In this document: positions 5,983 through 50,641 of the stretch, one piece after another
How positions within the stretch are numbered: the first letter of the stretch is position 1
Layout of the letters: each line of letters opens with the position of its first letter
From: a virus
Strand: one strand, 5' to 3'
Virus record (IMG/VR): IMGVR_UViG_3300037485_001022
Coordinates: 1 to 53,120 of that record
Length of the DNA: 53,120 bases
Notes under the pieces: generated by a model
Databases searched by the model: none
What the model was told of the DNA's origin: nothing
The model's input: the letters and a program-made list of their open reading frames with translations, nothing else
Program-made: the position numbers and the translations under genes

Positions 5983-6483
5983 ATGTTTGACCTGAATCAA
6001 TGTAAACCTGACGATCAGTTAGTAAACCGTGAGGGTACTGTATGTACCTATGTAGGAAGGGATATTGAACATCAAACTACTGTGACCTATCCACACGCAG
6101 TAACCTATCCACACGCAGTAAGTGATAGAGCAGGCACCTTTTGTTTCACGGACAATGGCCGATTTATGCACAATGAGCATGAGAATAAATGGGACATTGT
6201 AGGATTCTATAAGAAGGAACCTGCAAAGCGTGTGCGCAAGCCTAAACCAGTAAACAAACTGCTTGGGCTATGTGAATATGTACAAGAGCAGATAGACGTA
6301 GAAATGTATCACACAGCCGGTTACCTCTATGGTAATTTTTATCTGGATGGAAAGCGGTTTATCTACGGCTATACCTTTAAAACAGCACCTTATGCTGCTA
6401 GTATAGGACTTGTAAACAGTACCCGGCAGATTGTTCACACGCTCAACAACTTCAAAGGCGCAGTAACTAAACTGCGCAAGTAG
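5983..6483 (+). CDS. MFDM-family protein, copy 1
   Basis: A 166-residue protein opening MFDLNQCKPDDQLVNREG, then beta strands, with KWDIVGF closing the domain near residue 73. Proteins at 7606 and 9593 share this MFDxxxCKxxDxLxxRxG start and the WDIVG/FDIVG end, so the three are paralogues. The domain resembles small beta-barrel phage domains that begin with a fixed turn and end in DIVG or DLV. After a basic linker (KRVRKPKPVNK, shared with copy 3) comes a C-terminal domain of about 80 residues. It sits between DUF3150 and MoxR genes. It contains an internal 6-residue duplication (TYPHAV twice). Confidence 0.6.
   Translation: MFDLNQCKPDDQLVNREGTVCTYVGRDIEHQTTVTYPHAVTYPHAVSDRAGTFCFTDNGRFMHNEHENKWDIVGFYKKEPAKRVRKPKPVNKLLGLCEYVQEQIDVEMYHTAGYLYGNFYLDGKRFIYGYTFKTAPYAASIGLVNSTRQIVHTLNNFKGAVTKLRK
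6085..6120 (+). repeat. Perfect 18-bp tandem duplication
   Basis: Two identical adjacent copies of ACCTATCCACACGCAGTA, in frame inside the MFDM copy 1 gene and encoding TYPHAV twice. The identity of the DNA suggests a recent slip event; copies 2 and 3 of the family have no such duplication. Confidence 0.9.
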
Positions 6484-7605: not shown

Positions 7606-7971
7606 ATGTTTGACATGAGACAATGTAAGGCTGGCGATAAACTGCTTAGCCGTGATGGGAAAGTATATCTGTTTCAAGGGAAAAGTACTGATCCTGATTA
7701 CCAATATTATGTTATTATACCTAACGTATGGGTGCATACAAGCCGCACAGAACAGGGTAGGTTCTATGTAGGAAAAGAAATGAGTGAGTTTGACATTGTG
7801 GGATTTGCAGAAAAACAATGGAAAGAACTAGTATTGCATATACCCCCGCCCATTAGAGGTGTGTGCAATCTGCTTTGCCCACTAGTTGCACATAAGAACG
7901 AGACCGCATACTGTAAGTTCAGTACAGATTGTATTCGTCCCGGCCCTAGTTGCCCACAGTATCAGGGATAA
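7606..7971 (+). CDS. MFDM-family protein, copy 2
   Basis: A 121-residue protein starting MFDMRQCKAGDKLLSRDGK and closing the N-terminal domain with EFDIVGFAEK near residue 67. The C-terminal 45 residues differ from the other copies and carry four or five cysteines (CNLLCPLV, YCKF, DCIRPGPSCP), possibly a metal site. It lies two bases after the MoxR gene and two bases before the VWA gene, so it is probably made with them. The function is unknown; a role as partner of the MoxR-VWA pair is inference from position. Confidence 0.6.
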   Translation: MFDMRQCKAGDKLLSRDGKVYLFQGKSTDPDYQYYVIIPNVWVHTSRTEQGRFYVGKEMSEFDIVGFAEKQWKELVLHIPPPIRGVCNLLCPLVAHKNETAYCKFSTDCIRPGPSCPQYQG

Positions 7972-9592: not shown

Positions 9593-10072
9593 ATGTTTGA
9601 CATGAGTAAGTGTAAGATTGGGGATAAACTGATAACTCGCGGGGGTACGGGTGCTGTATTTAAAGGGGTTTCTAAATATTGGAGTGAGAAATATCCGTAT
9701 GCAGTACAATTTAATGGGGATGCTTCAATTTACAGTTGTGGGGCAACTGGTATATTTTGGGAAGCAGATATGCTAAGCCAATGGGACATCGTAGGTGCTG
9801 CTGTTGCAGATATTATTAAGTTTAAGCGTGTACGTAAGCCGAAACCTATAGACGATGGCACTAGAATAGCAGCACCCCCTTCTGCATTTGATACGGCACT
9901 CGAACGTGCTATGATGATTTATGTCATTCATAATAGTAAGACTACTACACCCGCCTATATTTGGGTAGCCTATATTAAAGACTGTATTCAGACATTTAAT
10001 AAGGCGATGAAAAGCAGGGATACCTACAAAGGGTTAGACTCTAAACTAATGCGTACAGCGCGGAGGACATAG
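9593..10072 (+). CDS. MFDM-family protein, copy 3
   Basis: A 159-residue protein starting MFDMSKCKIGDKLITRGG, ending its first domain with QWDIVGAAV near residue 68, then a basic linker RVRKPKPIDDG almost identical to that of copy 1 (RVRKPKPVNK). The last 70 residues are helical (ERAMMIYVIHN, TFNKAMKSRD). The shared N-domain and linker show common origin with the copies at 5983 and 7606. It is the last gene of the block around the MoxR/VWA pair. Confidence 0.6.
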   Translation: MFDMSKCKIGDKLITRGGTGAVFKGVSKYWSEKYPYAVQFNGDASIYSCGATGIFWEADMLSQWDIVGAAVADIIKFKRVRKPKPIDDGTRIAAPPSAFDTALERAMMIYVIHNSKTTTPAYIWVAYIKDCIQTFNKAMKSRDTYKGLDSKLMRTARRT

Positions 10073-15102: not shown

Positions 15103-15405
15103 ATGAAAGTCCTCCCATATACACCGGGTAAACCCCGTAAGATTCCGAAGGGTACACCATTTGCAGTATACGGCTGTAAACTGGAAAACCCTAACCGTTC
15201 AGTACGGGTTGCCATGATTGGCAAGGGCGATGACCCTAGTGAGGTAGGGCTAGAGTTTAGGATGGAAACACCGAAAGGTGAAACTCAACTAAAGTTTAGT
15301 CTTACTTATGCAGCATTTTGCGCTATGTGGCAATGTGCTAATGCGGCAGGTGCTGAATGGCATAAGCAATCAGTGTTAAGCAAGGTTAATGAAAAGAAGG
15401 ATTAA
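15103..15405 (+). CDS. Hypothetical 100-aa basic protein
   Basis: Starts MKVLPYTPGKPRKIPKGTPF, two bases after the previous stop with AAGGATTAACT ahead. Basic and beta rich in the first half (VRVAMIGKG, GLEFRMETPKGE), with a helical C-terminal half (AAFCAMWQCANAAGAEW). No family recognised. Confidence 0.6.
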   Translation: MKVLPYTPGKPRKIPKGTPFAVYGCKLENPNRSVRVAMIGKGDDPSEVGLEFRMETPKGETQLKFSLTYAAFCAMWQCANAAGAEWHKQSVLSKVNEKKD

Positions 15406-15409
15406 CGTT

Positions 15410-15841
15410 ATGACTATACTTGAAAGATTTGGGGCAGTTAAGAATAAGGAACTGCGCGGGAAGCTGCGAAAGAACTATAATGAGTGTTTCGCTCGTTCGT
15501 ATGGTATTGCGTTTGATGAGTACCATACAGATAGGGACGCTTTAACTTATGGTTTTTCATGGGCACAAAGTAGTGAGGGAGGTGAGTACTGGCGCGGGTT
15601 GTCTGAGTTATTGCTTACCGACGGTACATTTGACAGAGCGTTTACTGTAATGATGCGTGGTGTACCTGATATGCCTAGCATCCCACCGCCACCACCTAAA
15701 GGCCCACCTAAAGGCAAGGAGTACAGGTATTGCACTAGTAAGAACAATATTATAGTGCAACAGTTTGTTGATAACAAGATGGTATGGAAAGCTACATTCA
15801 CCATTCCTAATTTTATTGCTTGGGCTAAGGAAAACACGTAA
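15410..15841 (+). CDS. FxWxxSxEGxxYW-family protein, long form A
   Basis: A 143-residue paralogue. The N-domain has MTILERFGAVKNKELRGKLR and the hallmark FSWAQSSEGGEYWR at about residues 46-59. A proline-rich linker (PSIPPPPPKGPPKGK) leads to a C-terminal beta domain with GKEYRYC and VWKATFTIPNFIAWAKENT. The C-domain is shared with the next gene, so the two arose by tandem duplication. ATG at 15410 is chosen over an in-frame ATG at 15389 because it follows AAGGATTAACG. Confidence 0.65.
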   Translation: MTILERFGAVKNKELRGKLRKNYNECFARSYGIAFDEYHTDRDALTYGFSWAQSSEGGEYWRGLSELLLTDGTFDRAFTVMMRGVPDMPSIPPPPPKGPPKGKEYRYCTSKNNIIVQQFVDNKMVWKATFTIPNFIAWAKENT

Positions 15842-15852
15842 AGGAGGTTGAT

Positions 15853-16308
15853 ATGACATACAGGGAACGGTTTGAAAAGATTAAGACTAAAGAACTGCGG
15901 AATAAGTTACTTGCAGCTACACCCGCAGATGTATTAGAAAATGCCGTAGACGGTAGGAGTGATAGTAACCTTTTGCGGGGTGCCTTTATATGGGGTTGCA
16001 CAAAAGAGGGGTATACTTACTGGGATAAACTTAACGACGCAGTATCTAGTGCAGGCTCGTTTGATGCTGGATGGAATAAGTTGCCCCCACCTAAAACTAG
16101 CACTATGGTAATGGAACGTGCGGGATTCAAGTTTCCCGCAGTACATGCACGTAAAGATGACCCGCGTGGAAAAGAGTATGGTTACTTTATAGTTTGTATG
16201 GATACAGATAAGTATACGGTAACTAAGTTTGATTATGTTAATACTATAGTGTGGTCAGCTACTTTCAGTGAAGATAGTTTCCTAGCATGGGCGCGGGATT
16301 ATACATGA
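15853..16308 (+). CDS. FxWxxSxEGxxYW-family protein, long form B
   Basis: A 151-residue tandem paralogue of the previous gene. The hallmark is FIWGCTKEGYTYWD; the C-domain is GKEYGYF to VWSATFSEDSFLAWARDYT. Strong AAAGGAGG binding site. The short member at 2612 has the N-domain only, and the pair at 27215 and 27591 has a different C-terminus, so the N-domain behaves as a module. Function unknown. It overlaps the helicase start by four bases. Confidence 0.65.
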   Translation: MTYRERFEKIKTKELRNKLLAATPADVLENAVDGRSDSNLLRGAFIWGCTKEGYTYWDKLNDAVSSAGSFDAGWNKLPPPKTSTMVMERAGFKFPAVHARKDDPRGKEYGYFIVCMDTDKYTVTKFDYVNTIVWSATFSEDSFLAWARDYT

Positions 16309-23088: not shown

Positions 23089-23937
23089 ATGAAAAAAGAA
23101 TATCCATTAGACTTCATGCGTTTCTATCAGGTATATCCTAAGTCACGTCATGCAGGATATGTACTGCCTTTCCGGTCTTGGGAATCACTGCGGAAAAAGA
23201 ATGAACTACCTGATATTGATACAATCATTAGTGCAGTAGAAGCACAGAAGAAAACAAAGCAGTGGATTGGTGGTTATGTCCAGATGATGTCCACTTGGCT
23301 TAATCAGCACATGTGGGAAGCTAACATTATTGATAACGACCTTAAAGAAGAACACGAAACCAACACAAAGCAGCAGGTACAGGACGAGTTTGTAAACCAG
23401 CAACAAACACTTAACCGTGAGATACTTGCTAACAAGGTAACTGAACGGGATAGACTAGTATATAACATTACTAAGTTTATTAAACATTCTGATACTAAAC
23501 TAGTTGGTGATATAGCTAACTATTTTGGTGATATTATATCGTATGACGATGTAACATTCTATGCTAATTCTGAATCATCCGTATTACAGACACCTGCACT
23601 AATCCATGACTGTTTAGTTGACGTATGCGGGTTACGAAACAAGGAAAACAGTTTAGAACGCCTACAATACGTATTTGATAATTATCGTAATGTACTTTTA
23701 ATTACACTATTTGTACGGTATTGTGACGGTGCTGCCTGTGACATACTACCAAAAATAGTTAAGTTCAGTTTGCTTGAAATTGCTAATGCGCGTAAACTAG
23801 TCCATGTGTTATGTACACCTGAAAAGTGTAATGACTTTAGAACTAGATTTAACCTTAAACCTTATTTCAATACGGACTCATGGTTACTGTCGGTTGCACC
23901 CGAAGTAGCATTGAGGCCATTTCCAGAGTTACTATGA
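23089..23937 (+). CDS. Phage replication initiator/organiser-like protein
   Basis: A 282-residue protein. Residues 9-80 carry FMRFYQVYPKSRHAGYV, IDTIISAVEAQKKTKQWIGG and TWLNQHMWEAN; this order is typical of the C-terminal region of phage O/DnaC-like replication proteins (FWxxYPxK...AxxxQKxxxQW...xxTWLNQxxWE). Here it lies at the N-terminus and the remaining 200 residues are an unrecognised helical region with NYFGDIISYDD. It may load helicase at the origin. Two genes downstream is a methyltransferase and beyond it the DnaB-like helicase. It overlaps the methyltransferase by four bases. Confidence 0.5.
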   Translation: MKKEYPLDFMRFYQVYPKSRHAGYVLPFRSWESLRKKNELPDIDTIISAVEAQKKTKQWIGGYVQMMSTWLNQHMWEANIIDNDLKEEHETNTKQQVQDEFVNQQQTLNREILANKVTERDRLVYNITKFIKHSDTKLVGDIANYFGDIISYDDVTFYANSESSVLQTPALIHDCLVDVCGLRNKENSLERLQYVFDNYRNVLLITLFVRYCDGAACDILPKIVKFSLLEIANARKLVHVLCTPEKCNDFRTRFNLKPYFNTDSWLLSVAPEVALRPFPELL

Positions 23938-24887
23938 TTACTTTGCTTACAGGTGATTGCCGAGAAGTACTGAAAACCCGTCCTAGTGCTAGTGTTCATT
24001 GTTGTATTACTAGCCCACCTTATTGGGGTTTACGTTCGTATGGTATGGGTGCAGATAGCGGGGAACTAGGACTTGAAGCAACACCGCAAGAGTATGTAAA
24101 TAACATGGTTGCCGTATGCAAAGAAGTGAAACGTGTACTGCGTGCTGATGGCACACTATGGCTTAACTTAGGAGATAGTTACGCAGGAGGGGGACGCGGA
24201 AGCGGATATAGTGATAAACAAGACAGTAATGGTGGTACAGTTGGTATGCCCCCGAGTATCATACCGACTGGTTGTAAACCTAAAGACCTAGTTGGTATTC
24301 CGTGGATGGTAGCGGTTGCCTTACGTGCTGATGGGTGGTATCTGCGGCAGGATATTATATGGGCAAAACCTAATCCAATGCCAGAATCTGTGACTGATAG
24401 GTGTACAAAGTCGCATGAGCATGTTTTCCTTCTAAGTATATCTAGTAAATATTACTATGACGCTGCCGCAATTCAAGAACCTGCAGCTTATGATGGGCGT
24501 AAAGATACGGTTATGCACGGTGGCAAGAAAGACCCCGCTGGTTATACTGGTGTTGGGGCTGAACAATCCATGCAGACAAACGGGCATGAACGCTGGCAAC
24601 TAGATAAGGATGGTAACAGGGTTCGTAATAAACGTGACGTATGGACAGTACCTACATTCCCATATAAGGGTAGTCACTTTGCTACATTTCCACCTGCACT
24701 AATACGTCCTATGGTTCTAGCAGGATGCCCGCAAGGAGGTACTATCCTGGACCCGTTTGGCGGTAGTGGTACAACAGGGGAAGTGGCTGAATCAGAAGGG
24801 CGTAACGCAATACTTATTGACTTAAATCCTGCAAATCTTGAACTGCAAAAGGCACGTACAGCCCAACGCGGATTATTTACGCTATGA
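23934..24887 (+). CDS. DNA methyltransferase (N4-cytosine or N6-adenine)
   Basis: A 317-residue enzyme. The catalytic motif IV is TSPPY (SPPYWG, near residue 24), followed by the central region and the SAM-binding motif DPFGGSGTT near residue 275, the beta-class order. The serine in SPPY favours N4-cytosine, though N6-adenine enzymes with SPPY exist. No restriction enzyme gene is next to it, so it is probably an orphan protective or regulatory enzyme. ATG at 23934 is preferred over an in-frame start at 23880. The recognition site cannot be read from the sequence. Confidence 0.85.
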   Translation: MITLLTGDCREVLKTRPSASVHCCITSPPYWGLRSYGMGADSGELGLEATPQEYVNNMVAVCKEVKRVLRADGTLWLNLGDSYAGGGRGSGYSDKQDSNGGTVGMPPSIIPTGCKPKDLVGIPWMVAVALRADGWYLRQDIIWAKPNPMPESVTDRCTKSHEHVFLLSISSKYYYDAAAIQEPAAYDGRKDTVMHGGKKDPAGYTGVGAEQSMQTNGHERWQLDKDGNRVRNKRDVWTVPTFPYKGSHFATFPPALIRPMVLAGCPQGGTILDPFGGSGTTGEVAESEGRNAILIDLNPANLELQKARTAQRGLFTL

Positions 24888-27214: not shown

Positions 27215-27589
27215 ATGACTATACTACAAAGGTTCAAGGCGGTTAAGAATACGACATTGCGGTCTAAACTAGTTAAGAACTATAATAGGGCATACGCAAC
27301 TAGGACAGCTAACACGTATAAGGGTACTGACGGAAGCGCATTACTAAACGGGTTTATCTGGTCTAAGTCGCCGGAAGGATATCCGTACTGGGCTGATTTG
27401 TTCTTTGCTGATGTAGACGAAGGTGCTTCACTAGACCAGATATGGATTAAACTGTATGGTGGGGATTTGAATGCCCGTATTAAGCAACTAGAATCCGCTA
27501 TCCGTAAGACGATTAGGGAAAACAAGTGGTTAGCAGATGGGGAGAACTGCACACTGATTCACCTAAAGAATGTTTTGAAAAGGAAATAA
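27215..27589 (+). CDS. FxWxxSxEGxxYW-family protein, form C1
   Basis: A 124-residue paralogue beginning MTILQRFKAVKNTTLRSKLV with hallmark FIWSKSPEGYPYWA. The C-terminus is helical (IKQLESAIRKTIRENKW, then CTLIHLKNVLK), shared with the next gene and different from the 15.4-kb pair. It starts one base after the helicase stop. Confidence 0.65.
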   Translation: MTILQRFKAVKNTTLRSKLVKNYNRAYATRTANTYKGTDGSALLNGFIWSKSPEGYPYWADLFFADVDEGASLDQIWIKLYGGDLNARIKQLESAIRKTIRENKWLADGENCTLIHLKNVLKRK

Positions 27590-27590
27590 T

Positions 27591-27989
27591 ATGACTATAC
27601 TAGAATGTTTCAAGGGCATTAAGAGTCGTAGACTTCGGCGCAAGTTGCTTAGGAATTATAGCCCGACTTGGTGCGGGATTCCTGAAGCAAAACAAGTAGT
27701 AGCTTCTGATAAATGGGCATTGGAAAATGCTTTCTTTTGGGCAAAATCCTCAGAGGGGCATAACCACTGGTGCGCATTCCGTGATATGTTTATAGAAGGT
27801 GATACATTTGATACTGTATGGAATAGGATTAACTTTACTCATTTAGCTATCCCATCATCGAAACTTAAGCAGAGGATTAAGGTACTAGAGACCGCTATAT
27901 GTACTACACTAAAGGAAAGCAAACATTTAGCGGTTGGAGATGAGTGTACCCTTATTCACCTAAAGAACGCACTTGTAGATAAAACCTAA
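27591..27989 (+). CDS. FxWxxSxEGxxYW-family protein, form C2
   Basis: A 132-residue tandem paralogue of the previous gene: MTILECFKGIKSRRLRRKLL, hallmark FFWAKSSEGHNHWC (the Tyr of YW is His here), and the same C-terminal pattern (IKVLETAICTTLKES, CTLIHLKNALV). It is followed by the 51-bp upstream element, so it probably ends a transcription unit. Confidence 0.65.
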   Translation: MTILECFKGIKSRRLRRKLLRNYSPTWCGIPEAKQVVASDKWALENAFFWAKSSEGHNHWCAFRDMFIEGDTFDTVWNRINFTHLAIPSSKLKQRIKVLETAICTTLKESKHLAVGDECTLIHLKNALVDKT

Positions 27990-30755: not shown

Positions 30756-33287
30756 ATGTCTGATTTCCTTTTTGATATTGCGGCAATACAAACTAGTGTC
30801 CCTTCAAAACCACATTGCGGTAAGTGTCCCTTGAGCAATGTTGGTACGAAGTACGACCAGCCGTATAAAATTCAGGAGGGGAATCAGACAGTTTTACTTA
30901 TTGGTGGGGCAGTATCCGATTATGCCCACATGATGAAGGTTCCGGTTACTACCGAGTTTATTAAGCCGATTCTGGATTTGCTAGAAGGTTATACGGTTTA
31001 TTACATTCCGGTAGCGCATTGTGCGGTTGCTAAAGAGCCTATTAGTTACAGTAACCTAGTACATGCTGCAGAATGTTGCTCTTATAACCTGTACCAAACT
31101 ATTAAGCAGCTAAAACCTGACTTTACTGTACTGTTTGGTTCGCCTGCTATTACCGCTATCTATTCTAACCGTTGTGATAAGGGTTGTACGGTTGAGGTGT
31201 GGCGTGGTACCGTAACACCAGATCAGACACTGCATACTAATGTTATCTGCACGTACCCATTAATGGCACCCTGTACTGGTACTGAATCAGGTGTACTGTG
31301 GCGTTACATCCAACAAGACCTTGCACAGATTAAGACAGTAAAGCAGTGGCGCGATTATTCAGATTTGCCTTCTCGTGTCAAGATTATTGCTGATAAGCAG
31401 GTACTGTTTTACCTAGACCGCCTGCATGATGGTAGTGTCATAACATTTGACTATGAAACCACAGGGCTAAAGCCTGATAATAAGGGACATGAGATCGTAT
31501 GTGTATCTGTACGTACTGATATTGATAACTATGCGGTAGTCTTTGAATTAACTGATACCGTACTTCCGAAGTGGAAGCAGGTACTAGCCGACGAAACCAT
31601 TAAGAAGATCGCCCATAACATTAAGATGGAGGATCGGTGGACACGGAAGCGGCTTAAAACACCAGTAAAGGGTTGGATTTGGGATACTTGTATTGGGGCG
31701 CATTGCGTTAATCCGAATAGTGCCAGTGGCCTAAAGTTTCAGGCATTGCTTCAATTTGGTGTGGACGATTATAGCAGGGCAGTACATCATTATCTAGAGG
31801 CTGAAACATCTAACGACTTCAACCGTATCCATAAATGTGATAAGAAACAATTACATGTTTATTGCGGTATTGATTCGTACCTAGAATATGATTTGTACCT
31901 TTACCAGAAGGATACCCTTTGCTCGCGCAGAAACACACTAGGACGGGGCTTTGACTATGGGGTTGAGTTCTTTACCAAGGTAGCGCGTGCCTTTAGCGTG
32001 ATGGAAGGCAACGGCATTGCCATTGACAAGGCGTTAATGGGTGTGTATCTACCGGAAATAGAAGCTAAGCGGCAAGAAGCAATCACACAGTTTAAAACCA
32101 CACCTATCTATAAGGAATGGTATAACATATTCCTGCATACTACCGATTTAGGGTCGGACGTTCAACTCCGTCATATCCTATTCGATGTACTAGGTAATAC
32201 TCCGACAAAGTTTACAAGTAAGGATAAGGAAACAGTTGACGAAGAGGCACTTACTGATTTAGGTATTGAGGGACTAGACTCATATATCCGTGTTAAGAAG
32301 TTCAACAAGATCATAGGTACATACTATGCACAGATTAACAGGGAGATGGATGAGAATGGGTTACTGCATTGCGAGATGCAGTTAAATGCAGCACGGACGT
32401 TCAGGACATCCTGCACTAAGCCTAATCTGCAAAACATCAGTAAGACTGATAAAGAATACGCTAAGTACATCCGTGATTTGTTTATCCCGCAGAATCCTGA
32501 ATGGTGTATTGTAGAAGCGGACTTGAAGGGGTGTGAAGTAGCTGGTGCTGCCTGTCATACGCAAGACCCTAACCTGATAGCATACGTATCTAATCCTAAG
32601 TTGGACATGCACAAGGATTTAGGGGAACACCTCTACAATGTAGACCTAGCACTAATCAGTAAGGATTTGCGGAGTATTACTAAGGGCTATACCTTTGGTT
32701 CTTTCTATGGTAGTTATTGGAAGTTGACAGGGCCGTTTATCTGGAAACAACTACAACTACAAGAGCCTAAGTTGCTAGACGGTAAACCAGTACTTACACA
32801 CTTATCTGACATAGGGATTACAACGGTAGAGGACTTTACTAGGTTGGCGCAGGAAACTGATGATTTCATGTGGAATACACAGTTTCCCGGTTATCAACGA
32901 TGGAAGGAGCGGCAATGGGACAGTTACTTACAACTTGGGTTCGTAGACTTGTATACTGGATTCAGAAGGCCGGGGCCTTTGTCAAGGAATCAGGCGATAA
33001 ATACACCTATTCAGGGGGACAGTGGACACATTAACCTATGGCTCTGCTGTTACATACTATCTAAACTAAAGGACACCGGCATCCGTGCTAAGTTGTTCCT
33101 GCAGATTCACGATAGTGTGGTGGCTATAGTCCACCCTGACGATATAGCGGCATACCGGCAACTGTACATTGATGGTGTTGCTAGACTCCGTGAAATATGG
33201 AAATGGATTATTGTGCCTATTGAAATTGAGTTTGAAGTGTCACCACCCGGTAAATCATGGTTTGAAAAGAAGGAGTATAAAGGATGA
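30756..33287 (+). CDS. polA: Family A DNA polymerase with N-terminal UDG-like domain
   Basis: An 843-residue fusion. Residues 18-140 resemble family-4/5 iron-sulfur uracil-DNA glycosylase: CGKC (21-24), HCAVAKEPISYS with Cys89, AAECC (107-108) and LKPDFTVLFG. The glycosylase motif is altered (GGAVSD instead of GEAPG), so it is probably inactive. The 3'-5' exonuclease has DYET (Asp232, Glu234). The polymerase has motif A ADLKGCE (Asp589, Glu594), motif B R639..K643..F647..Y651 and motif C HDS (Asp786), where bacterial Pol I has HDE. It copies DNA with proofreading. The UDG-like part may bind DNA or uracil. Confidence 0.9.
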   Translation: MSDFLFDIAAIQTSVPSKPHCGKCPLSNVGTKYDQPYKIQEGNQTVLLIGGAVSDYAHMMKVPVTTEFIKPILDLLEGYTVYYIPVAHCAVAKEPISYSNLVHAAECCSYNLYQTIKQLKPDFTVLFGSPAITAIYSNRCDKGCTVEVWRGTVTPDQTLHTNVICTYPLMAPCTGTESGVLWRYIQQDLAQIKTVKQWRDYSDLPSRVKIIADKQVLFYLDRLHDGSVITFDYETTGLKPDNKGHEIVCVSVRTDIDNYAVVFELTDTVLPKWKQVLADETIKKIAHNIKMEDRWTRKRLKTPVKGWIWDTCIGAHCVNPNSASGLKFQALLQFGVDDYSRAVHHYLEAETSNDFNRIHKCDKKQLHVYCGIDSYLEYDLYLYQKDTLCSRRNTLGRGFDYGVEFFTKVARAFSVMEGNGIAIDKALMGVYLPEIEAKRQEAITQFKTTPIYKEWYNIFLHTTDLGSDVQLRHILFDVLGNTPTKFTSKDKETVDEEALTDLGIEGLDSYIRVKKFNKIIGTYYAQINREMDENGLLHCEMQLNAARTFRTSCTKPNLQNISKTDKEYAKYIRDLFIPQNPEWCIVEADLKGCEVAGAACHTQDPNLIAYVSNPKLDMHKDLGEHLYNVDLALISKDLRSITKGYTFGSFYGSYWKLTGPFIWKQLQLQEPKLLDGKPVLTHLSDIGITTVEDFTRLAQETDDFMWNTQFPGYQRWKERQWDSYLQLGFVDLYTGFRRPGPLSRNQAINTPIQGDSGHINLWLCCYILSKLKDTGIRAKLFLQIHDSVVAIVHPDDIAAYRQLYIDGVARLREIWKWIIVPIEIEFEVSPPGKSWFEKKEYKG

Positions 33288-43887: not shown

Positions 43888-44250
43888 ATGCTAGATATAG
43901 AACTACCAGAGGAAGAAGAAACTGAAACTGTACTAGATCGCGGACGGCAAGGTATAGCATTTGACTATATTGGTGCCGTCCCGCTTATTGAGTATGATGC
44001 TTGTAGACAAGGTATAGCAGAAATGAAGCAAAGGTTTCTGCGTAAGGGTGTATGTCCACATGACACTAAACCTTGTAAACATGCTAATAATTGTGCGTTA
44101 CTGAAAGCGGAAACCTGTTTTAACTTTAAGGCATTGCGTAAACGGTCTAATTCTAACATGCTATGTGAGTTTTGTCTTAAATTGCCTGTAGACGTTAAGT
44201 GTGCTGACTGCCCTAACTTCCGGTGTATGGTAGCTTATAAAGGACGCTAA
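43888..44250 (+). CDS. Cys-rich protein, multiple zinc-like sites
   Basis: A 120-residue protein with an acidic start (LPEEEETETVLDRG) and at least ten cysteines in three groups: GVCPHDTKPCKHANNC, ETCFNFK, LCEFCLKLPVDVKCADC and FRC. The spacing suggests two or three zinc-binding modules. It ends sharing one base with the methyltransferase start. Its function is unknown; it may serve the methyltransferase. Confidence 0.55.
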   Translation: MLDIELPEEEETETVLDRGRQGIAFDYIGAVPLIEYDACRQGIAEMKQRFLRKGVCPHDTKPCKHANNCALLKAETCFNFKALRKRSNSNMLCEFCLKLPVDVKCADCPNFRCMVAYKGR

Positions 44251-45011
44251 TGACCCCGACTTGGCAAAGTGAAGATGGCAATATCAAACTATATAACTGT
44301 AGTTGCTTTGACTATGGTAAGTTTGATTGTGACGTAGTAATAAGCGACCCACCATTCAGTAGCCGTACTCATGATGGGCATGATGAAGGTGCTAGACCGG
44401 GTTATGATGAAACATACCGTAACGTACTAAGTTATACTGCATGGGGTAAACCGGAAGTCAATGCCCTATGTAAACTGCTGCCGCCTAAAGGTTGGGTATG
44501 TATCCTAACCGATCATACATTGGCTAGAGAGTGGGAAGCAGAATTACAAGCAATCAAACGGTATGTATTTGCACCTTTACCCTGTGTTATGAAGGGGCGT
44601 TCAGTAAGGCTATGTGGTGATGGCCCTAGTAGTTGGACAGACTGGCTAATAGTAAGCCGGACGGCTAAAGAACATAAATGGGGTACACTACCGGGCAGTT
44701 ATGAAGGTAAACCATCCGAAATAGTACATGGTGGTGGTAAGCCTGTTGGGATGATGTGCAATATAGTTACTGATTATAGTAACGAAGGCGATATCGTTTT
44801 AGACTTCTGCATGGGCGGCGGCACCACAGGGATTGCCTGCCTAGCCAATAACCGTAAGTTCATAGGCATTGAGCAGGATTCTGTTACATTTGAAAAAGCT
44901 AAGAAACGTATAATTACTGAACTATCACAACAAAGGTTGCCTATCTATGTTTCAAACAATCGTAATAGACCCACCGTGGAAAGTCAAAGCGGGGCCAGCC
45001 TCTTTACATAA
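44250..45011 (+). CDS. DNA adenine-type methyltransferase (DPPF)
   Basis: A 253-residue enzyme with the catalytic motif DPPF (33-36) near the start and the SAM motif VLDFCMGGGTTG at about residue 187, again the beta-class order. DPPF points to N6-adenine. The gene overlaps the next methyltransferase by 65 bases in another frame. The target site is unknown, and no restriction partner is seen. Confidence 0.75.
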   Translation: MTPTWQSEDGNIKLYNCSCFDYGKFDCDVVISDPPFSSRTHDGHDEGARPGYDETYRNVLSYTAWGKPEVNALCKLLPPKGWVCILTDHTLAREWEAELQAIKRYVFAPLPCVMKGRSVRLCGDGPSSWTDWLIVSRTAKEHKWGTLPGSYEGKPSEIVHGGGKPVGMMCNIVTDYSNEGDIVLDFCMGGGTTGIACLANNRKFIGIEQDSVTFEKAKKRIITELSQQRLPIYVSNNRNRPTVESQSGASLFT

Positions 45012-45489
45012 ACCTAATCAACCGTCCCGTGATTTAGTATATCCTACAATGTCGCTAGACGAGATTAGCAAGTTACAGTTACCTTCTGCGGATAACAGCC
45101 ACATTTACCTATGGACTATTAACAAGTACCTAGAGGATAGTTTCGGTATCATGCGCGGTTGGGGATTTACACCATCTACTACCTTAGTATGGGCAAAGAG
45201 TCCTATTGGTAGGGGTTTAGGTGGGGCATACGGTATATGTACAGAATACCTAATCTTTGGACGTAAGGGCACACTAAAGGCTAAGACAAGATCATTTAGG
45301 AATTGGTGGAATATTCCTCGTAAGGGTGGGCACTCTGTTAAGCCTGAATTTTTCTATGACTTGGTAGAAAGTATTAGTCCTCCTGCCTATTTGGAAGTAT
45401 TTGCACGTAAAGGCAGACTAGGGTGGACAAGCGTAGGAAATGAGTTGACAGGTAATGACATCAACACTGATTTAGCAAAGTTGAGGTAA
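44947..45489 (+). CDS. MT-A70-type adenine methyltransferase (DPPW)
   Basis: A 180-residue protein of the MT-A70 family: DPPW at residues 8-11, LQLPSADNSHIYLWTIN, WGFTPSTTLVWAKSPIG and the C-terminal FARKGRLGWTSVGNE typical of the fold. It methylates adenine N6 in DNA or RNA. It begins 65 bases inside the preceding methyltransferase gene, so the two are probably translationally coupled. ATG at 44947 has AAAGGTTG ahead. Confidence 0.85.
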   Translation: MFQTIVIDPPWKVKAGPASLHKPNQPSRDLVYPTMSLDEISKLQLPSADNSHIYLWTINKYLEDSFGIMRGWGFTPSTTLVWAKSPIGRGLGGAYGICTEYLIFGRKGTLKAKTRSFRNWWNIPRKGGHSVKPEFFYDLVESISPPAYLEVFARKGRLGWTSVGNELTGNDINTDLAKLR

Positions 45490-45491
45490 AT

Positions 45492-46085
45492 ATGAGAATA
45501 GTATGTATGGGTACACACTGTACCGGCAAAAGCACTTTCATTAAAGATTTTATTGCTAAGCACCCATCCTATACCACACCGTCTAAAACTTACAGGGACA
45601 TGGTGAAGGAAAAGGGATTAAAAATCAACCAAGATGGAACGATCAACAACCAGTTAGAGATTTTCAACTTTGTAAAGCAGCAGCAACTAAAACTAACTGA
45701 ACCTAATGTAATCATGGATCGGTGCGTATTTGATGCAATGGTTTACACTAAAGCCTTGCTAGTCAAGAACATGGCTACCAATACGCCGATGGAACTTGCA
45801 CTATTTAAGTCCATGCGGGAGCAAGCATACGAGTTACTAAGTCACTTTGACCTAATCTTTCACTTCCCGCTTAAAGGTAACGAGCATATCGCTATTGAGA
45901 AGGATGGGTTACGTGATACCGATAAGCAGTATCAAAGTGACGTTGATTACCACTTTTGGGTAGAGACTGGTAACTGGTTAGGGCAAGCAAGGACAAGACT
46001 TACTAACTTCTACTGGATTACAGGTACACGAGACGAACGGCTTAACTACATAGAACCACTACGGAATTATGATAGCATCTCTTAA
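45492..46085 (+). CDS. P-loop nucleotide kinase-like ATPase (AAA_28/NadR-like)
   Basis: A 197-residue P-loop protein with GTHCTGKST (7-15), then VIMDRCVFDAMVYTKALLV (DRC, the substrate-contact region) and LIFHFPLK. This order matches the AAA_28 / NadR / thymidylate-kinase-like group that phosphorylates nucleosides or nucleotides. It overlaps the SbcC-like gene by 17 bases. A role in nucleotide salvage or in RNA end repair cannot be distinguished. Confidence 0.7.
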   Translation: MRIVCMGTHCTGKSTFIKDFIAKHPSYTTPSKTYRDMVKEKGLKINQDGTINNQLEIFNFVKQQQLKLTEPNVIMDRCVFDAMVYTKALLVKNMATNTPMELALFKSMREQAYELLSHFDLIFHFPLKGNEHIAIEKDGLRDTDKQYQSDVDYHFWVETGNWLGQARTRLTNFYWITGTRDERLNYIEPLRNYDSIS

Positions 46086-47190
46086 ATTATCTAACTTTCA
46101 GTCCCATGCTGATACTACTTTAGCCTTCCATCCATGTGTGAACGCTATTATTGGCAAGACTGACTCTGGTAAGTCCAGTATCATTAGGGCACTACGGCTA
46201 GTCATTGAAAACAAACCCAGTGGTACTGAATTTATTAAGCAGGGCACAAGTCAGACTGAGGTTACAGTGCAGTTTGATGACTGTACTGTAAGTAGAGCAA
46301 AAGGCACTAAGAACAACTATAAACTTAATGGTGAAGTACTTAAAGCCTTTGGACAGTCTGTACCTGATGAGGTTAAGGATGCTGTACGCATAGATGCAGA
46401 ATTAAGTATACAGAAACAAGCAAGTCCATATTTCCTACTAGGTATTAGTGAATCCGAACGGTCTAAACTAATCAATAGTTTGTGCAATATGGCGTTATCG
46501 TCGGAGTCGGTCGCAACCGCCCGTAGAAACGCATTAAGGGCTACCCGTGACGCGGACACACTACGGGAGCAATTAACGCCGCTACGGGCGCGGCAAGTGG
46601 CTTTAAACGCATTCCGGCAAAATGAATCCCTTGTGCTTGCCATTGATACGCTAGAAACAAGTTTAAGCACACTAAAAGCTAGATACGAAAGACTGGTTAC
46701 TTATGCTACAACATATAATAAACTCAATAGTGCGTTGGTATCGGTGGCGTCGTTTGATTCGAGAAGTACGGTATGCACTACATATATACAAGACGCAGTT
46801 ACACGGTTGTCAGGTAGTCAAAGTAACCTTACACAACTAACTGGTATAGCAGGTAAACTAAAGAAGGGTATACCAAATGTACTCCATTATGATGATTTTG
46901 ATTATACTGGTATTGTTCTGGGGTATGAACGGACCAGACAACTTGAAGCCTGCTTAATTAAGTTGAACAAACCTGTACCTAAGTCTATAACTATAGATAC
47001 AAGTATAGTGGATAAGTTACAGGAACTGGTAGTAAGGCATAGTGCTTTAACTGCTAAGTGTACTGAACTTGCTACTACTGCTGAACGTATTGCTAAGGGG
47101 CAAGCACTACTAAGTACGGAACTCACTATACTTACTCAATGGAAAGTATGTCCGCTTTGTGGGAATGATATGGGGAAAGTATGCGAATAG
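46069..47190 (+). CDS. SbcC/Rad50-like ATPase, N-terminal half ending in a zinc hook
   Basis: A 373-residue protein. SLKLSNFQSHADTTLAF leads into Walker A GKTDSGKSS (29-37), followed by IRALRLVIE as in Rad50/gp46. A long helical region follows (about residues 140-355). It ends with CPLCGND (Cys361, Cys364), the zinc hook at the apex of the coiled coil, and then stops. The missing C-terminal ATPase half is encoded by 49471-50067. The two parts must assemble, and the nuclease at 47181 lies between them. This is rare; Rad50-type proteins are normally one chain. It overlaps the SbcD gene by ten bases. Confidence 0.85.
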   Translation: MIASLKLSNFQSHADTTLAFHPCVNAIIGKTDSGKSSIIRALRLVIENKPSGTEFIKQGTSQTEVTVQFDDCTVSRAKGTKNNYKLNGEVLKAFGQSVPDEVKDAVRIDAELSIQKQASPYFLLGISESERSKLINSLCNMALSSESVATARRNALRATRDADTLREQLTPLRARQVALNAFRQNESLVLAIDTLETSLSTLKARYERLVTYATTYNKLNSALVSVASFDSRSTVCTTYIQDAVTRLSGSQSNLTQLTGIAGKLKKGIPNVLHYDDFDYTGIVLGYERTRQLEACLIKLNKPVPKSITIDTSIVDKLQELVVRHSALTAKCTELATTAERIAKGQALLSTELTILTQWKVCPLCGNDMGKVCE

Positions 47191-48053
47191 TAGCCATAGG
47201 GGATGTTCACCTTTGCGAGAAACCACCTGTATGCCGTAAGGATAAAGACTTTATGGCAACACAGTTGGATAAACTGCGCCAAATTGTCACAGTTGCTAAA
47301 GAACGTGACGCTATCCTAGTTATTGCAGGTGACCTGTATGATGAGTGGGATATTGGGTTTAAGTTAATCCATGAAGTAAACGCTATCTTAGGTGGTCTGG
47401 ATATTTGGTTTGTTGCGGGAAACCATGACTTACCTTATCATTCTATGGATAGGTTTACCGCTAGTCCCCTAGTACTGACTGAGGGGAATTTACTTAATAC
47501 TCCTTGGGGCTTAAGCGTAAGAGGGTATAGTTACGGTGAAGTGATTGAACCCGCCACACATACCCTACTTGTTCAGCACCGGATGGTTTATCTAACCGAT
47601 CCTGTAAAGGGTTATGAGGCAAACACCTATGATGTAAAATGGCTATTCACACAACCGGAGTATAAGGATGTAAATGTAGTCATTACGGGGGATAACCATA
47701 AGGCATTTGAGTACTGGCGAGATGATAGTCATGTATGGATTAACACTGGCCCTATTGTACGTACAGCCGTAACTGAACGTGACTATGAACCTAGTTGCTG
47801 GTTTATTGATACAGATTTGCTGCTAGTGGCAAGAGTTAAACTAAAGGTAGATACGGAAGCAGTTGATCGTACAGAAATGTACATCAAGCAAACTAAAGAC
47901 GCATTTGTCTCTACCTTTGCTGAACAACTAAAACAACAGGTATCATTTCAGTTAGACTTTAAGAAAAGTGTAGATTTACTTTTAGTAGACAAACCTAAAG
48001 AGCTAGTAACAGCAGTAAACAAGGCAATAGAAGAAACAGAAGGGGCACTATGA
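47181..48053 (+). CDS. sbcD: SbcD/Mre11-like nuclease (T4 gp47-like)
   Basis: A 290-residue metallophosphoesterase: IGDVHLCE (Asp8, His10), VIAGDLYDEW, VAGNHDLPY and ITGDNHKAF give the five-block calcineurin pattern of Mre11/SbcD. The C-terminal 80 residues are helical and would bind the ATPase. With the split SbcC partner it trims and processes DNA ends for recombination. It overlaps the neighbours on both sides. Confidence 0.85.
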   Translation: MRIVAIGDVHLCEKPPVCRKDKDFMATQLDKLRQIVTVAKERDAILVIAGDLYDEWDIGFKLIHEVNAILGGLDIWFVAGNHDLPYHSMDRFTASPLVLTEGNLLNTPWGLSVRGYSYGEVIEPATHTLLVQHRMVYLTDPVKGYEANTYDVKWLFTQPEYKDVNVVITGDNHKAFEYWRDDSHVWINTGPIVRTAVTERDYEPSCWFIDTDLLLVARVKLKVDTEAVDRTEMYIKQTKDAFVSTFAEQLKQQVSFQLDFKKSVDLLLVDKPKELVTAVNKAIEETEGAL

Positions 48054-48286
48054 GTAAGAAACTCACACCATTAGCTACCGACTTATATACTGCTATGAAA
48101 GCAGGGGTTATATGTCATTATATGCCTTGGCGTGGCAGGTATCGCCCTAATGCTTACTATTTCCGAAACGATACTATGACCCATTGTACAAAGCAAGTAA
48201 CCAGTTTACTAACTAATGGTTTAGTTGAGATGTTTGATGTGCACGGTGACCACCATAAGATACGAGTTAAGGAGATAGCAACATGA
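48050..48286 (+). CDS. Hypothetical 78-aa, possibly winged-helix protein
   Basis: Starts MSKKLTPLATDLYTAMKAGV at an ATG overlapping the previous stop. Helices followed by LLTNGLVEMFDVHGDHHKIR, a strand-loop-strand that could be the wing of a winged helix, with a Tyr/Arg-rich middle (RGRYRPNAYYF). DNA binding is plausible but unproven. Confidence 0.5.
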   Translation: MSKKLTPLATDLYTAMKAGVICHYMPWRGRYRPNAYYFRNDTMTHCTKQVTSLLTNGLVEMFDVHGDHHKIRVKEIAT

Positions 48287-48501
48287 GTAAGAAACCTGAA
48301 ATCAGTAATGTATCAGTTACCTTTGTAAAGGATGGCAACACACTAGGCACTACAGAAGAACTAGAAGCCATTACTGTAAACCTTGAGTTTCAGTTGCCGG
48401 GTGATGGCGGATTTACAGTTATTAAAACAGATGGGTGGTCTATGGATGACCCTAAAGAGTTGACTGAACTAGTCAACCGCACTAGAAAGATACTGAAATG
48501 A
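48283..48501 (+). CDS. Hypothetical 72-aa protein
   Basis: Starts MSKKPEISNVSVTFVKDGNT with ATGA overlap. Beta rich (VSVTFVKDG, AITVNLEFQLPGDG) and ends with an acidic helix (ELTELVNRTRKIL). Ends in an ATGA overlap. Not recognised. Confidence 0.55.
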   Translation: MSKKPEISNVSVTFVKDGNTLGTTEELEAITVNLEFQLPGDGGFTVIKTDGWSMDDPKELTELVNRTRKILK

Positions 48502-48686
48502 CAGATCAGGATATATGGGAAACTGCAATCAAACCCTATAAGCAGCGTATAGTTAAAGGTAAACTGACAATAACTGTACGTTCTCTACGTGAGATGATTT
48601 ACAGGGTGATTGATGCAGCAGCAACACAGGAAGTTCTAAATGAGGCAAAATACGCGGATGCTATGAGGAGTAATCGTTATGACTGA
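48498..48686 (+). CDS. Hypothetical 62-aa helical protein
   Basis: Begins MTDQDIWETAIKPYKQRIVK and is helical with basic patches (SLREMIYRVIDAAATQEVLN). It overlaps the next gene by eight bases. No family recognised. Confidence 0.5.
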   Translation: MTDQDIWETAIKPYKQRIVKGKLTITVRSLREMIYRVIDAAATQEVLNEAKYADAMRSNRYD

Positions 48687-48927
48687 TATTGAGACATTTG
48701 AAGCACAGAAGAAGAAGGTAGCAGATATTAACCACAAGATTGCAGTACTACAAGGTTCACGGGAAGAGGTACTGCGGCAGTTAAAGACTATGGGGGTTGA
48801 ACCGTCCGAACTAGAAAGCGTGATTACTACGCTACGTACACAGATTACCACTATGGAAACTGAATTGAAAGGTAAGATTGCAGAACTAACTGTTTTGATT
48901 GACACTACTAATGCGGCACTTGCTTAA
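48679..48927 (+). CDS. Coiled-coil protein between the split SbcC halves
   Basis: An 82-residue protein that is almost entirely coiled coil: FEAQKKKVADINHKIAVLQG, a short non-helical break (MGVEPSELES), and TTLRTQITTMETELKGKIAE. It sits between the two ATPase halves and could be a detached piece of their coiled-coil arm or a bridge between them; that is inference. Uses an ATG inside the previous gene. Confidence 0.55.
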   Translation: MTDIETFEAQKKKVADINHKIAVLQGSREEVLRQLKTMGVEPSELESVITTLRTQITTMETELKGKIAELTVLIDTTNAALA

Positions 48928-48948
48928 TCACACTGTTTATGCTACACT
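48920..48948 (+). promoter_or_regulatory. Weak sigma-70-like promoter
   Basis: TTGCTT (48920-48925), a 17-base spacer, and TACACT (48943-48948), placed 28 bases ahead of a signal-peptide gene. Only partial matches to TTGACA and TATAAT, so low confidence. It would drive the secreted-protein gene and the C-terminal SbcC half. Confidence 0.3.
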
Positions 48949-48976
48949 AACTTTATCTTTTGAAAGGATTATAACT

Positions 48977-49366
48977 ATGAAGAGTTTACTAATCAGTCTC
49001 ATCTTTGCTGCCACTATAGCCTCCGCTGATGTATTCCGCGTTAAGTTGACATCTAGTGCTAATGCCAATGGTGTTAATAACTACGCTACTGCTACACTAG
49101 GCGCACACAATCAGGGTATGCTGGCCTATATGACGCAGTACGATTGCACTACCAATGCGGTTATTGCTTCTACTAATGTCTACTATCATATTAGTGCTGA
49201 TAGTCGGGTTACTAACACCATTACCACAACGGTAACAGCCAACAACGCGGAAACAACCACCGTATTTAATCCTACCATCCCCTTTGCTGCAGGAGATACT
49301 CTTTATGCAATCGGAAACGCTACAAACTGCGCCTTCAAAGCAAGTTGCATTTTCCTCTCGCACTAA
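48977..49366 (+). CDS. Secreted beta-rich protein
   Basis: A 129-residue protein with a signal peptide (MKSLLISLIFAATIASA, cut after residue 17). The mature part is rich in Thr, Asn and Ala with beta patterns (NYATATLGAHNQGM, TITTTVTANNAETTTVF) and ends GDTLYAIGNATN. The minus-strand gene at 51500 is built the same way. Likely exported or virion-attached; no family recognised. ATG at 48977 follows GAAAGGATTATAACT. Confidence 0.55.
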   Translation: MKSLLISLIFAATIASADVFRVKLTSSANANGVNNYATATLGAHNQGMLAYMTQYDCTTNAVIASTNVYYHISADSRVTNTITTTVTANNAETTTVFNPTIPFAAGDTLYAIGNATNCAFKASCIFLSH

Positions 49367-49487
49367 AGATATAGACAAAATCATAGAAGAAGTGATTGTG
49401 TACCTGCGGCGGCGTGATAGAACAGCCGCCGCTAATGTTTTACGCATATTCCGTGAGAATGGATTTTGTAATGAGCGAGATCTGTGA
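49305..49487 (+). CDS. Hypothetical 60-aa basic helical protein
   Basis: ATG at 49305 has AGGAGA ahead and overlaps the end of the secreted-protein gene by 62 bases. Starts MQSETLQTAPSKQVAFSSRT and carries a basic helix (IIEEVIVYLRRRDRTAAANV). It overlaps the ATPase C-half by 17 bases. Two overlaps in different frames make it less certain. Confidence 0.45.
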   Translation: MQSETLQTAPSKQVAFSSRTKDIDKIIEEVIVYLRRRDRTAAANVLRIFRENGFCNERDL

Positions 49488-50067
49488 TAAGGCCCGTGTC
49501 CTTTTCCTGCACGCAAACCAAGTAGATAAGCAAGTGCAGGAACTAGAAAAGTCTATAGATGCTGCTGACCTTAATAGTATAACTGCAAAAGAAGCAGTAG
49601 TTATCCTGCAACAGGCAGCAGATGGGATGCAGAACCTGATTAAGGACTCATTAACTAGTCTGTGTTCTGCTGCATTAAAGGATGTATTCTATGATAAGAA
49701 CATATCCTTTGGTGTAACCTTTACCCCACAGAAAAACACTACTATCCTTGAGATGTATATTGAAGAGGATGGTATACGGTATGACCCACTGGAATCTAGG
49801 GGGCATGGATTGGCGGACTTAATCTGCTTTGCCTTACGTGTATCTATCCTTTGTCTACAGCCTACACTTCGCAAGGTTATTATCTTAGATGAACCCTTTA
49901 AGCAGATTTCAGAAGAATACCGTGAACGGGCTATTGCTTTCGTTAAGAAGGTAGCGGAGCAAACAGGTATTCAGATTATCTTAGTAACCCATATCACTGA
50001 ACTTGCCCGTAATGCGGATAAGGTGTTTAAAGTAACTAATGTAGACGGTAACTCAATTATAGGATAA
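49471..50067 (+). CDS. SbcC/Rad50-like ATPase, C-terminal half
   Basis: A 198-residue protein that is the C-lobe of an SMC/Rad50 ATPase: a coiled-coil start (NQVDKQVQELEKSIDAADLN), the ABC signature SRGHGLADLICFALR, Walker B RKVIILDEPFKQ, and the H-loop VTHITELAR. It has no Walker A, which is on the N-half at 46069. The pair would form one composite ATPase with SbcD. An upstream in-frame ATG at 49459 is possible. The break lies exactly at the zinc hook, so each protein holds one arm. Confidence 0.85.
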   Translation: MSEICDKARVLFLHANQVDKQVQELEKSIDAADLNSITAKEAVVILQQAADGMQNLIKDSLTSLCSAALKDVFYDKNISFGVTFTPQKNTTILEMYIEEDGIRYDPLESRGHGLADLICFALRVSILCLQPTLRKVIILDEPFKQISEEYRERAIAFVKKVAEQTGIQIILVTHITELARNADKVFKVTNVDGNSIIG

Positions 50068-50071
50068 TTTT

Positions 50072-50641
50072 ATGGCGAAAGGCGCAGACTTTGAACGTGA
50101 TATTTCCAGAACCCTTTCACTATGGTGGAGTCATGGTGAACGGGATGATATTTTCTGGCGGACTTCCATGTCGGGAGGAAGGAGTACGGTACGGGCTAAG
50201 GCGGGAAAAGCAACGGCTTACCAATCGGGTGACATCACCGCTACCGACCCAATAGGAGCCCCCCTAATTAAAGCCACGGTGATAGAGCTAAAACGTGGGT
50301 ATAAGAAATATTGCGTACTAGATATGGTCGATTCCAAAAACCCCACTAAGACCGTTTTAGGGGGCTTCCTGACGCAGATTAGCGCGGAGTTAGAACAAGC
50401 CAAGATCAGCAACTTTCTACTTATCTGCAAACGAGATGGTAGGGAACCTTTCGTTATCTTACCATATCCGATAAAGGTACTTATTAATAAGAATAATATC
50501 CTGCCTATGCTATTCCCTAGTAATGAGATAACCTATGGGGGCATACTAATCATTAGTTTGCAAAACTTCCTAAAATGCGAACCAGAGAATTACTTAACCG
50601 CTGCACAGGAATATAACAATGCGTACACGAAAACTACCTAA
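50072..50641 (+). CDS. PD-(D/E)XK nuclease-like protein
   Basis: A 189-residue protein with FERDIS (Glu8), SGDITA (Asp54) and VIELKRG (Glu72, Lys74), the E...D...ExK order of the PD-(D/E)XK fold. WRTSMSGGRSTVRAKAG resembles the substrate-binding segment of Holliday-junction-resolvase-like and VRR-NUC-like enzymes. It may resolve or trim recombination intermediates, next to SbcCD and the recombinase. Starts four bases after the ATPase C-half. Confidence 0.6.
   Translation: MAKGADFERDISRTLSLWWSHGERDDIFWRTSMSGGRSTVRAKAGKATAYQSGDITATDPIGAPLIKATVIELKRGYKKYCVLDMVDSKNPTKTVLGGFLTQISAELEQAKISNFLLICKRDGREPFVILPYPIKVLINKNNILPMLFPSNEITYGGILIISLQNFLKCEPENYLTAAQEYNNAYTKTT

Follow-up and report, generated by a model that had tools for sequence, protein, structure and literature searches.

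The Mre11-Rad50 (SbcCD) complexes are characterized by an ATPase with conserved lobe I and lobe II motifs and a CxxC zinc hook, and by an adjacent Mre11/SbcD nuclease. In Rad50 as well as in SMC-like proteins, the communication between the hook and the ATPase head along the coiled-coil arms is still not understood. Here we describe a locus of this type in a contig of an uncultured virus (IMG/VR record IMGVR_UViG_3300037485_001022; the whole 53,120-nucleotide stretch, 53 kb, is referred to as the window, and its numbering is used unless a locus is named). The locus contains the same motifs and the same adjacent nuclease, but differs from the described complexes in that Rad50 is divided over three chains, with an extra hairpin protein and with unequal arms that would not be covalently closed at the hook. 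Based on sequence comparisons, these genes very probably encode a working Mre11-Rad50 (SbcCD-type) DNA-end processing complex in which Rad50 consists of three polypeptides. No description of a split Rad50 was found in the open PMC literature (subscription papers and preprints lay outside the search), and this variant of Mre11-Rad50 appears to be new, widespread and overlooked.

Parts of this arrangement can be recognized in several known systems. Phage T4 gp46/gp47 is likewise annotated as a viral Mre11-Rad50 acting in recombination and replication, but gp46 is one chain of 560 amino acids. The archaeal nurA-herA-mre11-rad50 operon has the same neighbors as five of the Bacillota loci described below; however, rad50 is one gene in that operon, where three genes are found here. 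In crystallized Rad50 heads (PDB 1F2T/1F2U, 1II8 and 3QKR), lobe I and lobe II also form one head as separate chains. 1F2T, 1II8 and 3QKR are artificial two-chain Rad50 heads, and in contrast to such laboratory constructs the split reported here is natural. Mre11/Rad50 fusions, including Mimivirus R555 and others (PMC3175470), combine the same parts in a rearranged form, comparable to two of our loci (L015 and L129) in which SbcD is fused to the N-terminal half of Rad50. However, neither a separate C-terminal half gene nor a hairpin gene was described in that 2011 study, and fusion is the derived state in the tree presented below. The same study reported fusions from Bacillus phage 0305phi8-36 and Anaerostipes without one P-loop segment of SbcC (PMC3175470), which may be fusions of SbcD and the N-terminal half with an unseen separate C-terminal half.

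Partition of Rad50 motifs between two genes

The locus is a run of largely overlapping genes on the plus strand, in the order N-terminal half of Rad50 (N), SbcD, three small open reading frames (ORFs), hairpin protein, two small ORFs and C-terminal half of Rad50 (C). N (46069–47190, 373 amino acids) comprises lobe I, a helical arm and a C-terminal zinc hook, and matches Pfam AAA_23 (E 5e-12); no second AAA_23 match was found anywhere in the 53-kb record, and thus no full-length Rad50 copy is hidden elsewhere in it. The Walker A motif GKTDSGKS (residues 29–36, 46153–46176) contains three residues, G29, G34 and K35, that are invariant in 62 aligned relatives, as is Q117 (46417–46419), the probable Q-loop glutamine. 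The zinc-hook motif CPLC (47149–47160), whose cysteines C361 and C364 are both invariant in the alignment, lies 13 residues before the C-terminus; the chain ends with WKVCPLCGNDMGKVCE, and its C-terminal sequence is also given as CPLCGNDMGKVCE. The C gene, which encodes a short coil followed by lobe II, has an open frame beginning with TTG at 49396 and likely starts at the ATG codons at 49459 (49459–50067, 202 amino acids) or 49471 (198 amino acids). It contains the ABC (ATP-binding cassette) signature position SRGHGLAD (49795–49818), identified from the sequence and the C alignment, the Walker B motif VIILDE (49876–49893, with L143, D144 and E145 invariant) and a nearly invariant H-loop histidine, H178 (49990–49992), in the motif THI. 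PHROGs lists N (phrog_16465, ‘exonuclease’) and C (phrog_15167, ‘ATPase’) as separate, unlinked families.

Between the two halves, an SbcD/Mre11-type metallophosphoesterase of 290 amino acids (47181–48053; Metallophos E 2.6e-10, SbcD PHROG 100) shares its first 10 bases with the end of N and has intact nuclease/phosphoesterase motifs, and the hairpin protein, a coiled-coil protein of 82 amino acids, is encoded at 48679–48927. A preliminary description of the window had placed both genes there, with C and its signature and Walker B motifs 2.3 kb from N; both ORFs are real, and the likely starts of C were measured to lie 2.27–2.28 kb from the N stop codon.

The affiliation of both halves with Rad50 was assessed by sequence and structure. 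The N family profile matched Rad50 of M. jannaschii (E 2e-16) and the C family profile matched lobe II of P. furiosus Rad50 (E 4e-15), and the nearest solved relatives of both halves were archaeal Rad50 proteins. In a comparison with SMC, RecN and RecF, sequence profiles ranked Rad50 first, and structure comparison of lobe I alone gave tied Z scores for RecF, SMC and Rad50 and did not separate them. The AlphaFold2 model of N (mean predicted local distance difference test, pLDDT, 85) consisted of lobe I followed by helices at residues 141–227, 235–274, 279–298 and 311–358, the last of which leads into the hook, and its top Foldseek match was Mre11-Rad50 (3av0).

Across the relatives, Walker A was confined to N and Walker B and the H-loop to C, both being kept in more than 95%. 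Walker A was retained in 81 of 83 viral and all 18 Bacillota N proteins, and the two viral sequences without it are explained by a start call that truncates the protein in one case and by an additional split of the gene in the other; loss of ATP binding by N, which according to the preliminary description would speak against a split Rad50, was thus not observed. Walker B was retained in 78 of the 81 C proteins and the H-loop in all 81, and the ABC signature varied in form (GGG or GHG), with 65 of 81 recovered by one pattern. This partition bears out the proposal that Rad50 is present here in separate chains with ATP-binding motifs in both halves. Lobe I, both arms, the hook and lobe II were found in three genes and not in one polypeptide; none of the relatives compared had a full-length single-chain form with arms, which likewise had been named as evidence against the split, and the sole fusion of N and C (L129, see below) has neither arm nor hook.

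The position of the cut was consistent as well. The final 35 residues of N contained a CxxC motif in 79 of 83 distinct viral and 17 of 18 Bacillota sequences, and none of the C proteins had one (0 of 81 viral, 0 of 20 Bacillota); the placement of the hook at the end of N is therefore not due to chance. In nearly all relatives the first hook cysteine was followed by the end of N after 6–29 residues. Judged from these sequences, N is severed just behind the hook and not at it, and the hook turn therefore remains on the N chain, possibly together with the start of the descending helix in the longer N proteins. The preliminary description had placed the split exactly at the hook, which is correct as to its vicinity but not as to the exact point, and had concluded that the hook cannot be the fold-back of one chain, which does not hold given that the turn is still made by N alone.

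Conservation in viruses and Bacillota chromosomes

A search of viral sequences with the single C sequence returned no relatives, which were found only by alignment-based searching. Viral contigs were gathered with N and with an alignment of C (for the latter, the best 80 of 318 relatives were kept), and removal of identical sets left 92 loci. Because split sequences served as seeds in the C search and its relatives were limited to the best 80, the frequency of single-chain relatives is not given by these counts. Whether other phages carry the same split had been raised as a check, and 74 of the 92 non-identical loci had the order N-SbcD-hairpin-C. Two others had N-hairpin-C-SbcD, one consisted of an SbcD-N-hairpin fusion with a separate C, and the remaining loci were cut by contig ends or had no detected hairpin gene. 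In every locus where all three Rad50 pieces were found, they followed the order N-hairpin-C, which is the order of the segments in one Rad50 chain. In Bacillus phage vB_BboS-125, N is gp32, the hairpin protein gp34 and C gp35, with an unannotated SbcD farther on, and Microcystis phage Mvi-JY20 has N, SbcD, hairpin and C as four adjacent ORFs. To judge from this distribution, the split is old and conserved and not a recent event. An uncultured 485-kb phage (LR745208.1) has an SbcD match at 454824–455747 and a C match at 458266–458874, probably representing the same module.

The module is also not confined to phages. In a sample of 299 non-independent genomes from one Bacillota group, C was present in 49, and twenty of the C regions were fetched; a genome scan with the N alignment recovered one Bacillota metagenome-assembled genome; at a threshold of 1e-15, C was absent from fourteen well-known control genomes. 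In nine of the twenty fetched regions and in the metagenome-assembled genome (L113), the module was located between recA (often with recX and cinA) and rny/ymdB, these loci reading recA-recX-(SbcD-N-hairpin-C)-rny, and five Bacillota loci read nurA-herA-SbcD-N-hairpin-C. A hairpin protein from Bacillota corresponds to phrog_18563, which PHROGs lists with unknown function. Prophages as the source of the Bacillota copies were ruled out, their neighborhoods being those of housekeeping genes (recA-recX-rny, nurA-herA, addAB).

Canonical SbcC (E 1e-25) was found in only one of the 49 genomes with the split form (G102), compared with 19 expected from its presence in 116 of the 299 genomes (Fisher p 1e-10). 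At a laxer limit of 1e-10, canonical SbcC (TIGR00618) gave no match in 15 of 17 tested genomes with the module, and in three of the genomes (G303, G268 and G244) the only AAA_23 proteins were SMC, RecN and the split N. The chromosomal module of Bacillota thus appears to nearly exclude canonical SbcC, an exclusion that may partly be a lineage effect, given that the genomes are from one phylum and not independent. Many Bacillota genomes that seemingly lack SbcC carry the split form, named ‘AAA family ATPase’ or ‘exonuclease’.

Natural fusions give further information on how the pieces belong together. In L015, one ORF of 771 amino acids comprises SbcD, N, the hook and, behind the hook, a segment matching the hairpin protein, with C separate; the match covers residues 712–759 with 18.6 bits, compared with 0.2 or less for the remaining coiled coils of this ORF. 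In L129, a single ORF of 700 amino acids on the minus strand (L129:4155–6254), located beside addAB, joins SbcD, lobe I and lobe II, and hook, arm and hairpin gene are all absent. This locus would represent a minimal armless Mre11-Rad50, and the fusion indicates that N and C would make one head. In a phylogeny based on both lobes, the L129 and L015 fusions were placed inside the split clade (node supports 0.7–0.92); within the family, fusion is therefore a derived condition and the split is older. Neither T4 gp46 nor E. coli SbcC, which aligned poorly to the head profiles of the split family, was part of this tree, and the outgroup protein turned out to be an SMC, leaving the root unsettled, so that the tree does not settle whether a virus or a bacterium had the split first.

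Endonuclease genes next to N and an additional break within it were also observed. In L089 (2288–3877), NUMOD4 and HNH endonuclease domains are fused directly behind the N zinc hook, and in L017 an AP2/HNH-type gene immediately follows N. Their location at the cut would agree with a homing-endonuclease event that caused it, or they could be later visitors. N of L036 (5346–6735) is broken again after residue 71, so that two small ORFs separate the part with Walker A from the rest, which shows that additional cuts in N are tolerated. Neither L036 nor L089 had an Rfam match to an intron.

The hairpin protein, the arm and alternative explanations

The AlphaFold2 model of the hairpin protein consisted of two helices, at residues 2–37 and 42–81, forming a helical hairpin (pLDDT 94). 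Searches with this model by Foldseek and VIA-align gave no match, which is uninformative either way. The preliminary description proposed a two-chain Rad50 to which this protein may add a piece of arm; the separate chains were confirmed, but the hairpin protein is a regular third component, and three chains (N, hairpin and C) are therefore the better description. A distinctly less favored but still plausible explanation is that Rad50 is split as described but the hairpin protein is no piece of the arm and serves as a linked accessory, such as a regulator or a DNA-binding factor. Its fold as a hairpin, and not as a straight helix continuing the arm, is in line with an accessory role, as are the two loci without the gene and the short match in L015 (48 residues). 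On the other hand, the gene is always located between N and C, its counterpart follows the hook in the L015 fusion and L129, without hook and arm, is also without the hairpin gene, which argues for the arm piece originally suggested.

Several observations weigh against a three-polypeptide complex with a shared arm. N has approximately 220 arm residues in the window and up to 300 in Bacillota, compared with approximately 65 in C and 80 in the hairpin protein, and the length of the N arm was uncorrelated with that of the hairpin protein or of C (rho 0.17 and 0.16). Given these unequal and non-covarying lengths, a plain pairing of two helices of equal length cannot account for the arm. In addition, two sister loci (L092 and L098) had no detectable hairpin gene, and N of Microbacterium phage Magritte (gp155, L018:6001–7050) has no CxxC and thus no hook. 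The distance matrices of N, SbcD, hairpin and C were correlated (r 0.58–0.78), which speaks for the complex, although correlated trees are also expected of genes with a shared inheritance. The models, all of single chains, show the helices of N running up, down and up again to end at the hook, which suggests that the N arm is partly paired with itself and that C and the hairpin protein pack on it.

In the proposed three-polypeptide complex, N would supply lobe I with Walker A and the Q-loop, the helical arm and the CxxC hook, and C the short coil and lobe II with the signature, Walker B and H-loop. The two lobes would form one ABC ATPase head joined to an SbcD dimer, and two complexes could still be joined by zinc at the hook on N. 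The hairpin protein would pack on the arm, where it may replace the piece of descending arm that is missing between the hook and C. In the virus, this complex may process DNA ends for recombination-linked replication, similar to T4 gp46/47, and in bacteria it may have the general Mre11-Rad50 role of the cell. More tentatively, and with considerable doubt, we propose that a large Bacillota group and many viruses have the three-chain form as their sole Mre11-Rad50, and that its arms, unjoined at the hook, can part, with the hairpin protein as a removable clamp that lets DNA in or out, unlike in a single-chain Rad50. If functional, a natural Rad50 in separate chains would imply that Rad50 can do without a covalent connection of its arms at the hook, and arm, hook and clamp could be removed one at a time.

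A role of the module as a defense or counter-defense ATPase-nuclease, and not in DNA-end processing, is unlikely. Rad50-like ATPases are known from defense systems (PMC10586767) and many of the loci are viral, but the chromosomal loci beside recA, recX, nurA, herA and addAB, in genomes without canonical SbcC, fit housekeeping repair, and the nuclease motifs of SbcD are intact. Less likely still is a recent breakage, in which a homing endonuclease or another insertion interrupted the ordinary rad50 of this phage and left pieces with little or no function. The endonuclease genes observed in L089 and L017 where N is cut would be in line with such an event, and split genes of this origin are known in phages (PMC2988022, a review of mobile elements); however, the same cut recurs in viruses (approximately 90 loci) and in Bacillota (approximately 49 genomes) at 20–30% identity with motifs intact, which refutes a recent event, and an insertion could explain an ancient origin but not the present state. 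Least credible is a coincidental neighborhood of N and C acting in different complexes: the genes are separate and can be distant (in Magritte, N is at 94 kb and C, gp2, L116:284–934, at 0.3 kb) and some contigs have C alone, but each chain carries only one half of the composite ABC site, N and C both match Rad50, they are joined in one ORF in L129 and the order N-hairpin-C is fixed.

Other genes of the window

The small ORFs within the locus have no relatives in the compared loci and lie outside the conserved module. Three of them are located between SbcD and the hairpin gene (48050–48286, 48283–48501 and 48498–48686) and two between the hairpin gene and C (48977–49366, possibly secreted, and 49305–49487), all on the plus strand. 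Directly after C is a PDDEXK endonuclease/resolvase-like gene (50072–50641), a relative of which is found just before N in L016. Three DNA methyltransferase-like genes were observed (23880–24887, 44250–45011 and 44947–45489), two of them adjoining the Rad50 module.

Elsewhere in the window, a family A DNA polymerase of 843 amino acids (30756–33287) has approximately 210 extra N-terminal residues that resemble uracil-DNA glycosylase by eye; Pfam gave only polymerase and exonuclease matches for this protein. Two sets of paralogous small proteins were also observed, in each of which one member was tested and had no Pfam match: three that start with MFD..CK..D (5983–6483, 7606–7971 and 9593–10072) and four with the pattern (R)FKxxKxxxLRxKL (15389–15841, 15853–16308, 27215–27589 and 27591–27989). 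In the gene at 1678–2484, an NTGDSNTGD-type repeat (Pentapeptide_2) comes after a DUF7666 domain.

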